Source: Sulfurimonas sp.
GTDB taxonomy: Bacteria > Campylobacterota > Campylobacteria > Campylobacterales > Sulfurimonadaceae
Assembly: GCA_002899765.1 (NCBI GenBank)
Contig: PPDH01000014.1
Location: forward strand, 18,188-67,792
Direction of reading: 5' to 3'
Length of the DNA: 49,605 nt
Part shown: in pieces, positions 2,212 through 26,384 of the stretch
How positions within the stretch are numbered: the first letter of the stretch is position 1
How the letters are laid out: each line of letters opens with the position of its first letter
Program-made: the position numbers and the translations under genes
The notes under the pieces: generated by a model
Told to the model about the DNA's origin: nothing
Database searches by the model: none
Seen by the model: only the letters and a program-made list of their open reading frames with translations

Positions 2212-2982
2212 TTGGAAGCGGTTGTAATAGCATCAGCATCGTTTTTTGCGGCACTTTTAACCTTTTTTAGCGGATTCGGGCTTGGTACTCTTCTTATGCC
2301 GGTTGCAGCTATTTTTTTTCCACCTACAATAGCGATTGCGATAACTGCGGTAGTTCATTTTGCAAATAATGTGCTTAAGTTTTTTTTAGTAGCAAAAAGC
2401 GCAAATATAAAAGTTTTACTCTCTTTCGGTCTACCTGCCGTTGTTTTTGCTTTTTTGGGAGCCTATTTACTAGGGTTTTTGTCTGATATGGATGTGCTTT
2501 ATGCGTACAAGTTTTTTGATAAGAGCTTTTTTATTACCCCGATTAAGCTCAGCATAGGGCTTTTAATACTTTTTTTTGTGATGCTTGAGTCGTTGGCGTT
2601 TTTTTCTAAAATCGCACTGGATAAAAGATGGCTTCCTTTGGGCGGAGTGTTGAGCGGTTTTTTTGGCGGGTTATCAGGAAATCAGGGAGCATTTAGAAGT
2701 ATGTTTTTGCTCAAAGCAGGTCTTGGCAAAGAGCAGTTTGTCGCAACGGGCGTAGTGCTTGCGGTAATGGTTGATAGTGCCAGAATGATAATATACAAAG
2801 AGAGTTTTTTGCTTCATACGGAGATAGATTGGAGCATGATACTAATAGCAACGAGTGCGGCTTTCTTGGGAACGCTTGTAGGGAATAGAGTGTTAAAAAA
2901 AGTATCTATAGAGTTTATACGCATAGTTGTCTCCGTATTGCTTGTTATCATCTCTTTGGGACTTATAAGCGGTGTGATTTAG
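2212..2982 (+). CDS. TauE/SafE (TSUP) family permease
   Basis: The protein has 256 residues, nearly all hydrophobic, with about eight predicted membrane helices arranged as two halves. The N-terminal half has ASFFAALLTFFSGFGLGTLL and the second half SGFFGGLSGNQGAFRSMFLL, the repeated glycine-rich motifs of the TauE/SafE sulfite/sulfoacetate exporter family. These inner membrane proteins export small organic or inorganic sulfur anions in some bacteria, but substrates vary and cannot be read from the sequence. The start is TTG at 2212, chosen because AAAGGAG ends five bases before it. The gene stands alone between the tRNA promoter region and the Bat cluster. Confidence 0.85.
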   Translation: MEAVVIASASFFAALLTFFSGFGLGTLLMPVAAIFFPPTIAIAITAVVHFANNVLKFFLVAKSANIKVLLSFGLPAVVFAFLGAYLLGFLSDMDVLYAYKFFDKSFFITPIKLSIGLLILFFVMLESLAFFSKIALDKRWLPLGGVLSGFFGGLSGNQGAFRSMFLLKAGLGKEQFVATGVVLAVMVDSARMIIYKESFLLHTEIDWSMILIATSAAFLGTLVGNRVLKKVSIEFIRIVVSVLLVIISLGLISGVI

Positions 2983-23372: not shown

Positions 23373-24371
23373 TTGAAACTTACAAACGAAGAGCTCAAAG
23401 AGAAAATAAACGAATATAAAAAGAAGTTAAGCGTAACTGTTGTTGCTCACTTCTACCAAAGAGATGAAGTTTTTGAGATGGGTGATATTACGGGAGACTC
23501 TCTAGAGCTTGCCATAAAAACAAAAGAGGATAATTCGGAGTACGTCGTATTTTGCGGTGTGGGATTTATGGGGCAGAGCGTAAAAGTGCTCTCTCCAAAT
23601 AAGAGAGTCGTTATGCCAAAAGCAGCATGCTGTGCTATGGCTACTATGATTGACGGCATGCAGTTTGATGCATCTGTAAAAGCGCTTAATGAAGCCGGGA
23701 TTAAAAATGAAAATATTCTTCCCATAACTTATATCAACTCTAATGCCGATGTAAAGGCAAAAGTTGCGCAGATGGGCGGCATGGTCTGTACAAGTTCAAA
23801 TGCAAAAAAAATTATCACCGCGGCACTTGAAGAGGGGAAGAAGATACTTTTTGTACCGGATAGATGTTTGGGGCAAAACATAGCAAACCAGATGGGGCTT
23901 AAATCCTGCGTAATCGGAGACGGAACCAATCCTGCTGATGCGGACATTATCTGTTTTAACGGTTTTTGTTCGGTTCATCAGCTCTTTAGCATAGACGATA
24001 TCAACTTTTACCGCAAAAAATATCCGGGTATTTTGATAGTCGTTCATCCTGAGTGTGACCCTGCAATCTGCAACGCAGCCGATTTTGTAGGTTCTACTTC
24101 GCAGATTATAAAGTATATAAAAGAGCTTCCCGAGGAGCAGAAAGTAGCCGTTGGAACCGAGTTTAACCTAGTTAACCGTTTACGTAAAAAAAATACCTAT
24201 GTTCTCTCATCTACAAAGCCTGAGTGTCCGACTATGAATGAGACAACTTTGCAGGATTTGTACGACATACTCAAATCTATTGACGAGGGTGCTCCGCTTA
24301 ATGAAATACATGTAGATGAAGAGACGCAAAAATGGGCGAAAATCGCACTAGAGAGAATGTTGGCGCTATGA
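23373..24371 (+). CDS. nadA: Quinolinate synthase
   Basis: The protein has 332 residues. It condenses iminoaspartate with dihydroxyacetone phosphate to quinolinate using a [4Fe-4S] cluster. The three cluster cysteines are visible in the contexts ACCAMA (Cys87), NGFCSVHQLF and TKPECPTMNE. AHFYQRDEVFEMGDITGDSL and HPECDPAIC are further family motifs. The start is TTG at 23373 with GAGGA upstream. It overlaps nadC by four bases (ATGA), so the two NAD enzymes are coupled. Confidence 0.95.
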   Translation: MKLTNEELKEKINEYKKKLSVTVVAHFYQRDEVFEMGDITGDSLELAIKTKEDNSEYVVFCGVGFMGQSVKVLSPNKRVVMPKAACCAMATMIDGMQFDASVKALNEAGIKNENILPITYINSNADVKAKVAQMGGMVCTSSNAKKIITAALEEGKKILFVPDRCLGQNIANQMGLKSCVIGDGTNPADADIICFNGFCSVHQLFSIDDINFYRKKYPGILIVVHPECDPAICNAADFVGSTSQIIKYIKELPEEQKVAVGTEFNLVNRLRKKNTYVLSSTKPECPTMNETTLQDLYDILKSIDEGAPLNEIHVDEETQKWAKIALERMLAL

Positions 24372-25183
24372 TGGAAGAGTTTGTAAAAGAGACATTGGCT
24401 CAAGATGTAGGTCGTGGAGATCTTTATGCTCTAGTTGAGCCTAGCGTGGCTGCCACGGCAAGGATTATTGCAAAAAGTGACGGAGTAGCAGCCGGTGTAG
24501 AGTATATAAATATTTTGGCTAAACTTGAAGATTTTGAAATCAGCTGGAATGTACATGACGGCGAGAGTTTTGTAAAAGGCGATGTATTAGCAAATATTAG
24601 CGGAAGCTCACATGTACTCTTGAAGATAGAGAGAACTCTTTTGAATATGCTTCTTCACGCAAGTTCAATTGCGACTCTGACTAAGAAATATGCAGAGATT
24701 GTAGAACCATACGGAGTCAAGCTTTTAGATACCAGAAAAACAAGACCGCTTCTGAGAGTTTTTGAAAAGTATGCCACGCGTTGCGGCGGAGCCGTAAATC
24801 ACCGCATGGGGCTTGATGATTCTTTAATGATTAAAGATACACACCTAAAAACGATTGATGATTTAAAAATATATATTAAAAAAGCAAGAAACAGAATTCC
24901 TTTTACTGCAAAAATAGAGGTAGAAGCAGAGAATTTTGAGACGGCAAAAGAGGCTTTTGAAGCCGGTGCAGATATAATCATGTGCGACAACATGACACCT
25001 GAACAGATTTGCGAGGTTGTAAAATACAGAGATGAAAACTTTGCACATGTACTGCTTGAAGCCAGCGGAAATATATCTCTGCAAACCATAGAGTCTTACG
25101 CCAAAACAGGCGTTAATGCAATCAGCAGCGGTTCGCTTATCCACCAAGCAAACTGGATTGATTTATCAATGAAAATGGATTAA
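24368..25183 (+). CDS. nadC: Quinolinate phosphoribosyltransferase
   Basis: The protein has 271 residues from the ATG at 24368, which overlaps the nadA stop. An ATG 36 bases further upstream is in frame but lies inside nadA and lacks support. Motifs LLDTRKTRPLLR, E-K-Y-A-T-R-C-G-G, NHRMGLDDSLMIKDTH and SGNISLQTIE are those of NadC, which turns quinolinate and PRPP into nicotinate mononucleotide, CO2 and pyrophosphate. No L-aspartate oxidase (nadB) gene lies in the window. It is followed by the unusual repeat region before flhB. Confidence 0.95.
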   Translation: MMEEFVKETLAQDVGRGDLYALVEPSVAATARIIAKSDGVAAGVEYINILAKLEDFEISWNVHDGESFVKGDVLANISGSSHVLLKIERTLLNMLLHASSIATLTKKYAEIVEPYGVKLLDTRKTRPLLRVFEKYATRCGGAVNHRMGLDDSLMIKDTHLKTIDDLKIYIKKARNRIPFTAKIEVEAENFETAKEAFEAGADIIMCDNMTPEQICEVVKYRDENFAHVLLEASGNISLQTIESYAKTGVNAISSGSLIHQANWIDLSMKMD

Positions 25184-25193
25184 AGCTTAACAC

Positions 25194-25222
25194 ATGGCTG
25201 ATGATCAGGAAAAAACCGAAGA
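25194..25222 (+). repeat. Upstream copy of a 29-bp duplication of the flhB 5' end
   Basis: Bases 25194-25222 are identical to 25332-25360, the first 29 bases of flhB starting with ATGGCTGATGATCAGG. The two copies are 138 bases apart, a multiple of three, so they are in the same frame. This copy has no good ribosome binding site. Confidence 0.97.
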
Positions 25223-25322
25223 TTATATCTTTTTGAACGAAAAAGGAACACGTCCCTTTTTCTACGCTGGGCGCTATACCACTAAAGAAAAATCTCTTGC
25301 GAGATTTTGTATGCTCTTCTAG
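25194..25322 (+). CDS. 42-codon ORF created by the duplicated flhB start
   Basis: Translation from the upstream flhB start copy gives ten residues beginning MADDQEKTE, then unrelated sequence (YIFLNEKGTRPFFYAGRYTT, then K-E-K-S-L-A-R-F-C-M-L-F) to a TAG at 25320-25322. It begins ten bases past the nadC stop. The non-flhB part is basic and aromatic with one cysteine. I do not recognise the family. Its ribosome binding site is poor, and two stems lie inside it, so translation is doubtful. If the TAG were read through, the frame would continue into flhB. Confidence 0.35.
   Translation: MADDQEKTEDYIFLNEKGTRPFFYAGRYTTKEKSLARFCMLF
25239..25262 (+). other. Perfect 8-bp hairpin 1 in the nadC-flhB gap
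   Basis: GAAAAAGG (25239-25246) and CCTTTTTC (25255-25262) are exact inverted arms around AACACGTC. With its U-rich 3' arm it could attenuate transcription after nadC. Confidence 0.65.
25289..25308 (+). other. Perfect 8-bp hairpin 2 in the nadC-flhB gap
   Basis: AAAATCTC (25289-25296) and GAGATTTT (25301-25308) are exact arms around the tetraloop TTGC. It ends 12 bases before the AGGAG site of flhB, so it could affect flhB translation. Confidence 0.65.
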
Positions 25323-25331
25323 GAGATATTA

Positions 25332-26384
25332 ATGGCTGATGATCAGGAAAAAACCGAAGAACCCACCGACAAGAAGATAGAAGACGCCAGAAAAGAGGGG
25401 AATGTTCCAAAGTCGCAAGATGCGTCGGGGGTTATGACTCTTTTTGTTGCTATTTTGGCTATTTTGCTTCTTTTTCCATATATGAGTTCTCATATGATTT
25501 TTCTCTCAAAATACTATTTTTCACTTTTGGGAATGCCGCTTGATAGAGCCTTAATGGTAGATATTGCTATTGTAACGATAAAAGAGTTTCTTCTTATTGT
25601 TATGCCTCTTACGATTTCGGTTGCTATTGCGGGTGTAATAGCGGCTATCGCTCAGTTTGGGTTTTTATTTACTACAAAAGCGATTATTCCCGATTTTAAA
25701 AAAATAGACCCGATAAAGGGGACAAAAAATCTTTTTTCAATGAAAAAAATCATTGAAGGCATCAAGATAACATTTAAATCTTTCACGACTTTGGGAATCG
25801 GTTTTGTTTTTTTCTTCCTTTTTATAGTAGAACTTCCGACAGTTGCACTCTTTGGGCTGGGAGATCAGATGATATGGCTTAAAGACAAAGCTATAGTTAT
25901 CGCATTTGTTATGCTTTTTATTATTTTCATATTTGCGATTATTGACATAGTAATTGTGAGAAAACAGTATTTTGACGGGCTTAAGATGAGTAAGCAAGAG
26001 ATTAAGGATGAGATGAAAAATATGGACGGAGATCCGCTTATCAAAGCAAAAATCCGCCAAATTCAGATGCAGGCATCAAGAAAGAGAATGATGTCCGAGG
26101 TTCCTCATGCAGATGTCGTTATAACAAACCCGACGCATTATGCAGTTGCCATAAAGTATGACGAGCAGAAGTCGCATGCGCCTATAGTCGTGGCAAAAGG
26201 TATGGACAATATAGCGTTGCATATTAAAAAAATAGCCAGAGAAAACAATGTTCATATTGTTCAAAATCCTCCTTTGGCAAGAAGTTTATATGCGCAGGTT
26301 GAGTTAGATAGACCTATACCGAGTGAGCTGTTTGCTGCAGTAGCAGAAGTGCTTGCGTATGTTTACAAAATGAATAAGAAGTAG
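25332..26384 (+). CDS. flhB: Flagellar type III export switch protein FlhB
   Basis: The protein has 350 residues: a charged N-terminus (MADDQEKTEEPTDKKIEDAR), four membrane helices (about 33-210) and a cytoplasmic domain with the autocleavage motif N266-P-T-H269. Cleavage between N and P switches export from rod/hook to filament substrates. Length is normal. The start has a strong AGGAG seven bases upstream, unlike the 29-bp copy at 25194, so this is the true start. It sits in a housekeeping run away from the other flagellar genes at 42484-47656. Confidence 0.96.
   Translation: MADDQEKTEEPTDKKIEDARKEGNVPKSQDASGVMTLFVAILAILLLFPYMSSHMIFLSKYYFSLLGMPLDRALMVDIAIVTIKEFLLIVMPLTISVAIAGVIAAIAQFGFLFTTKAIIPDFKKIDPIKGTKNLFSMKKIIEGIKITFKSFTTLGIGFVFFFLFIVELPTVALFGLGDQMIWLKDKAIVIAFVMLFIIFIFAIIDIVIVRKQYFDGLKMSKQEIKDEMKNMDGDPLIKAKIRQIQMQASRKRMMSEVPHADVVITNPTHYAVAIKYDEQKSHAPIVVAKGMDNIALHIKKIARENNVHIVQNPPLARSLYAQVELDRPIPSELFAAVAEVLAYVYKMNKK

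Follow-up and report, generated by a model that had tools for sequence, protein, structure and literature searches.

In the window (the whole 49,605-nucleotide stretch of Sulfurimonas sp. DNA analysed here), the flagellar gene flhB has two copies of its start, one on either side of a member of a dispersed three-hairpin repeat, E. E, apparently a new REP-like family, recurs at some loci together with a duplicated gene start; the flhB duplication is more interesting in this genus context than as a single insertion. The insert at flhB is probably a REP-like tandem unit, the duplicated start of which would serve as a translational-coupling leader.

The 29-nt 5′ end of flhB (ATGGCTGATGATCAGGAAAAAACCGAAGA) occurs as an upstream copy A1 and a downstream copy A2 (Table 1). 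The two are identical at 29/29 positions, spaced 138 nt (46 codons) apart in the same frame with 109 nt between them, and no other repeat in the 800 nt around them exceeds 20 nt (80% identity). This bears out the original prediction of an exact, in-frame duplication. Equally borne out are an ORF of 42 codons that starts at the upstream copy and ends in TAG, here termed the relay ORF, and the presence of a good ribosome binding site at the downstream copy only. The latter is a Shine-Dalgarno (SD) sequence, AGGAG, that most insert-free genomes lack. The 10 nt spacing of A1 behind the nadC stop matches that of flhB itself in insert-free genomes. Both of the exact 8-bp hairpins that had been predicted are present, the one corresponding to stem I continuing through an A-C mismatch and an A-T pair; a degenerate middle hairpin (~25269-25279) had been overlooked.

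Table 1 Features of the nadC-flhB junction in the window
Feature	Positions	Strand	Details and evidence
nadC (quinolinate phosphoribosyltransferase), upstream of flhB	24332-25183	+	ORF; Pfam QRPTase_C/N
A1, upstream copy of the first 29 nt of flhB	25194-25222	+	10 nt past nadC stop
Relay ORF from A1, 42 codons	25194-25322	+	TAG at 25320-25322, 9 nt before flhB ATG
E, member of dispersed three-hairpin repeat	25234-25309	+	model R1, 53.4 bits, E = 1.4e-10
Stem I of E	25239-25262	+	25239-25246 with 25255-25262, then family A-C mismatch 25247/25254; 8 exact bp
Linker TACGCT of E, conserved	25263-25268	+	
Stem II of E, degenerate here	25269-25279	+	GGG CGCTAT ACC
Linker ACTAAAG of E, conserved	25281-25287	+	
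Stem III of E	25289-25308	+	25289-25296 with 25301-25308; 8 exact bp, loop TTGC
flhB Shine-Dalgarno AGGAG	25321-25325	+	overlaps relay-ORF TAG; belongs to insert
A2, copy at the real flhB start	25332-25360	+	
flhB (flagellar export switch protein), 350 aa	25332-26384	+	ORF; Pfam Bac_export_2, E = 4e-119

The region 25184-25345 folds better than dinucleotide shuffles (z = -2.4). When searched as DNA, the 167-nt stretch matched its own genome at the flhB place only, whereas the covariance model of E described below detects 11 members in this genome. A weak match to the same model on the reverse strand of the window (2353-2433, 20 bits, E = 0.015) is perhaps a decayed second copy. An assembly error at flhB is very unlikely, because the same A-E-A architecture recurs in ~30 independent assemblies, several of them single-contig.

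Parts of the flhB insert match other places in related genomes. The pattern TACGCT-N(8-16)-ACTAAAG was found in 75/100 genomes of the genus, with inner bases that change in complementary pairs. The fetched copies of E are ~76 nt long and consist of stem I with a constant A-C mismatch, the linker TACGCT(A), stem II (mostly GCC-GCTAT-GGC), the linker ACTAAAG(C) and stem III. As MAFFT plus RNAalifold misaligned the structure of 40 copies, twelve copies with the same layout were selected by hand instead; in these, 93% of cells pair (29-41% in slid versions) and 14 of 19 pairs show double changes. The covariance model R1 was built on these twelve copies, one row of which (L093) has a shortened loop; the count of 73 matches given here uses the genome sequence. 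A search with R1 returned 73 matches in 65 sources, including the window copy. In an alignment that was fitted to R1, and so leans towards it, 94% of the cells of these matches are paired as opposed to 37-48% when slid, and double changes occur in 19/19 pairs (362 cells).

Within the genus, 120/135 genomes have R1 matches, the highest count being at least 35 copies in one genome, and a sample of the class gave matches in 37/249 genomes and 12/55 genera. An exact pattern scan of named genomes located E in Sulfurimonas, Sulfuricurvum, Sulfurospirillum and other Campylobacterota. Nine in ten copies fall outside ORFs and 120/145 are placed between co-directional genes, with both orientations represented. 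A known structured RNA was rejected as the identity of E, there being no matching family in Rfam, and a literature search with most subscription journals outside its reach found no description of the repeat. E seems to be a widespread repeat family in sulphur-oxidising Campylobacterota, unrecorded so far. Another conserved palindrome (CCTTAATTTTATTTTATAAAATGAAGG) precedes many E copies, as seen at L069, L071, L078, L085 and L090, and possibly constitutes a second repeat family.

Within the stems of E, standard pairs swap between G-C and A-U, with G-U occupying only about ten of over 1,200 cells. Selection at the RNA level usually leaves G-U intermediates. As G-U is nearly absent despite hundreds of compensatory changes, we infer a role, or a correction, of the hairpins at the DNA level. 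The invariant A-C mismatch of stem I, together with compensatory changes nearly devoid of G-U, suggests selection or correction in the form of DNA hairpins.

E has the features of REP-like elements in the broad sense: many intergenic copies with compensatory hairpin changes, and tandem clusters that take in flanking DNA (arrays at L356, L357, L078, L079 and L080; 17/163 copies). Two of these loci, L356 (G120:C3:61845-62109) and L357 (G061:C12:57640-57905), each hold three nearly identical E copies in a tandem array, the periods being 94 and 96 nt. An IS or MITE was rejected: aligned E copies are without terminal inverted repeats, and there is no constant duplication (17-87 nt where present, with none at most copies). 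On the reverse strand, CGTAG is found before stem I in 149/158 copies, the other 9 having A in place of the last G. GTAG REPs are defined by an unpaired GTAG beside a palindrome; in E the last G forms the first stem-I pair and covaries with its partner (G-C in 58 and A-U in 9 of 70 sequences). Y1 transposase genes are present in 72/135 genomes of the genus. None of the 27 Y1_Tnp loci examined has E nearby, and no Y1_Tnp match was obtained in genomes G004, G020 and G031 despite their 20, 32 and 23 E copies. Mobilisation of E by a RAYT was rejected on these grounds, while descent of E from a RAYT REP is weakened only, since REPtrons can be lost. On this evidence E is REP-like, and doubtful as a RAYT REP.

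A comparison of all flhB starts found in the genus reveals a series of arrangements at this one junction. Insert-free genomes have flhB mostly 8-20 nt behind nadC and generally without a good SD. The A-E-A arrangement occurs in ~30 genomes. Others carry an extra upstream partial unit (e-A-E-A; for example G001, G025 and G036), two full A-E units (G121), the 3′ part of E plus SD only (G062, G104, G118, G126 and others) or E without the upstream A (G150). Within each of two pairs, G155 versus G062 and G015 versus G126, the only difference in sequence is a complete A-E unit. In 18 A-E-A genomes A1 begins 8-21 nt behind the nadC stop, the spacing that flhB itself has in insert-free genomes, and so occupies the old start position of flhB. 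A1 is best matched by the A2 of its own genome in 23/26 cases. On a quick flhB tree, the presence of the unit (any trace) requires 28 changes, a count that is approximate as some 'empty' genomes carry degenerate remnants (G031), with at least 19 forced by strong branches; the clustering is no greater than for shuffled labels. Distances between E copies at flhB show a weak correlation with flhB distances (Mantel r = 0.24, p = 0.006).

Compared as sequences, these loci show an array structure that gains and loses units at flhB. We read it as an old unit that recombination between A copies probably homogenises and deletes, alongside some interspecies exchange. The differing presence of the unit between close relatives argues against both a one-off insertion and an old conserved leader common to all relatives, while template switching at the hairpins, another origin put forward for the duplication, is possible.

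As expected of a coupled leader, an ORF that stays open and ends at the downstream start is found in 22/29 genomes (window copy included), where the A1 frame is open to the flhB start; the other seven relay ORFs close before the end. Sixteen of the open frames stop 9-10 nt before the ATG, five form TAATG or TAA-ATG and one ends 11 nt into flhB, such that 21/22 stop within 10 nt of the start codon. With A1 left out, the insert part is open in 23/29 genomes in the A1 frame versus 0 and 1 in the other frames, dinucleotide shuffles leading to an expectation of 2.2. Neutral substitutions, in the number observed and placed at random on the consensus, would leave 9.6 ± 2.3 of 26 open, unchanged when sites are weighted by observed variability, as compared with 20/26 observed, a test that is too sharp given that tree tips are related and not independent. 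Structural constraint on E itself may keep stops rare.

Differences in the insert part are spread evenly over the codon positions (0.27/0.25/0.23), in contrast to those in flhB (0.19/0.08/0.50). A functional relay peptide was rejected, as this bias is absent and the peptide is unconserved between species; the proposal of an upstream peptide that modulates flhB is altered accordingly. Three genomes (G001, G025 and G026) read E in another frame and arrive at the same end. Taken together, openness above expectation, the even codon-position spread and the alternate frame with the same end indicate retention of the open frame but not of the peptide. At L143, the flhB leader of G069, a 36-nt insertion lies inside E, with a possible hairpin of its own (GAATGCCATTGGTTAGCATTC) and the relay frame kept. 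An SD-sequestering hairpin was also considered and rejected, the folds being only weak and variable. The original prediction further held that the insert might uncouple flhB from nadC. The data point the other way: A1 is at the usual distance of flhB from nadC and its frame usually runs to the flhB start, so nadC-flhB coupling looks preserved via the relay ORF. A coupling role of the relay ORF at flhB is likely on this sequence evidence.

Strong direct repeats on both flanks were detected at 17/163 E copies compared with 0/314 controls. Some of the 17 are E arrays or flhB loci, and the new places are a tRNA in L340, gene tails in L045 and L072, and L057, L262 and L318; a pair at L100 with tRNA genes may reflect ordinary tRNA similarity. 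At L340, E is flanked by two tRNA-like genes of 87 nt that are identical to each other, which looks like a joint duplication of tRNA and E. The metG junction of the same genome as the window (L072 1186-1360, G000:C2) has the last 33 nt of the pre-metG gene (68 aa) on both sides of an E copy in the opposite orientation. Relatives differ at this junction, with no E in G132 and G004, A-E-A in G120, A-E-A-E in G061 and a single E with no duplication in G103.

The insert at flhB carries one copy of E. Together E and A make up a 138-nt unit, and comparison shows it growing and shrinking as (A-E)n-A, with A homogenised within species and whole units lost precisely. The upstream A copy holds the old place of flhB right behind nadC. 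We propose that ribosomes finishing nadC, or starting at A1, would translate across the E hairpins, terminate at, or close beside, the flhB SD and start codon that the 3′ side of E supplies, and reinitiate there, the relay ORF being selected for openness and not for its peptide. Any benefit of the unit would be small, because most genomes do without it. The original interpretation is partly supported, including its suggestion of a small element that carries its own ribosome-binding site: the insert holds a member of a multi-locus repeat and the SD segment comes with it. More tentatively, and with less than an even chance of being right in full, E may be an undescribed three-hairpin DNA repeat that provokes duplication of adjacent DNA and settles on gene starts and ends with the gene left intact, the extra start at flhB being kept as a nadC-to-flhB relay ORF that is turned on and off by gain or loss of the 138-nt unit.

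The same observations could be accounted for by neutral REP-like clutter, whereby E occasionally duplicates its flank, the open frame is a by-product of E sequence and shared descent, and flhB is translated from the insert SD. The scattered and often lost presence of the unit on the tree, the unconstrained peptide, the early closure of 7/29 ORFs and the fact that a good SD after E needs no coupling are all consistent with this explanation. However, the relay frame is open about twice as often as neutral substitution would predict, an excess seen in the A1 frame alone, and its openness survives both the frame change through E in three genomes and the 36-nt insertion in G069. We regard neutral clutter as a possible but rather doubtful account. 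Recurrent site-specific insertion, in which E transposes to the same flhB point in many species with a target duplication of ~29 nt each time, would explain why A copies are species-specific and mostly identical, why E-free genomes look like perfect empty sites, and why the metG site has a 33-nt duplication and empty relatives. It is nevertheless unlikely: flhB E copies have features absent elsewhere (stem I GAAAAAGG, an AT-rich stem III and the SD tail), the weak distance correlation is that expected from descent plus exchange, 146/163 E copies elsewhere are without flank duplication, and a mobiliser was looked for with none found.

A regulatory leader, with a peptide or RNA fold that senses a signal in the manner of an attenuator or riboswitch-like control of flhB, is suggested by the stable hairpins, the upstream ORF and the weak hairpin over the SD in several species. 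This appears very improbable, given a peptide that is unconserved and read in two different frames, the occurrence of E in both orientations between unrelated genes, stems almost without G-U, an SD hairpin of just 0 to -7 kcal/mol and the lack of an Rfam match. We thus retain the REP-like tandem unit with its putative coupling leader as the preferred reading. The ~100 related genomes offer a natural series in which one gene start has zero, partial, one or two units of hairpin repeat plus duplicated start. Two questions become testable with it: do repeats like E promote the tandem duplication of the DNA beside them, and can a second copy of a gene start be co-opted as a coupling leader, here for a flagellar export gene that is essential?

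E resembles REP sequences and BIMEs in being a short, dispersed intergenic palindromic element with covarying stems and short loops, mostly placed between co-directional genes and present in tens of copies. REP clusters (BIMEs) are described as reiterated in tandem along with flanking DNA, and GTAG and CGTC repeats have been reported in Sulfurovum (PMC3733652). E is unlike REP in its three hairpins, its two conserved linkers (TACGCT and ACTAAAG) and its length of ~76 nt; unlike GTAG REP (PMC3733652), one of its reverse-strand GTAG-like letters is paired and covaries with the base opposite. RAYT REPs differ further, in that no tyrosine transposase is located beside E copies and E-rich genomes exist without one. 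The relay ORF is comparable to termination-reinitiation coupling and to operon leader uORFs, as its stop lies at, or overlaps, the SD or start codon of the following gene (TAG in AGGAG, TAATG). In contrast to those leaders, its 5′ end duplicates the start of the very gene that follows, and it crosses a mobile-type repeat and encodes an unconstrained peptide. MITEs and Rickettsia palindromic elements are likewise small non-coding elements near or in coding sequence, with an open frame kept through them. Compared with these, E shows no whole-element terminal inverted repeats and no 2-10 bp target duplication, and flhB itself stays intact because its start has been duplicated.
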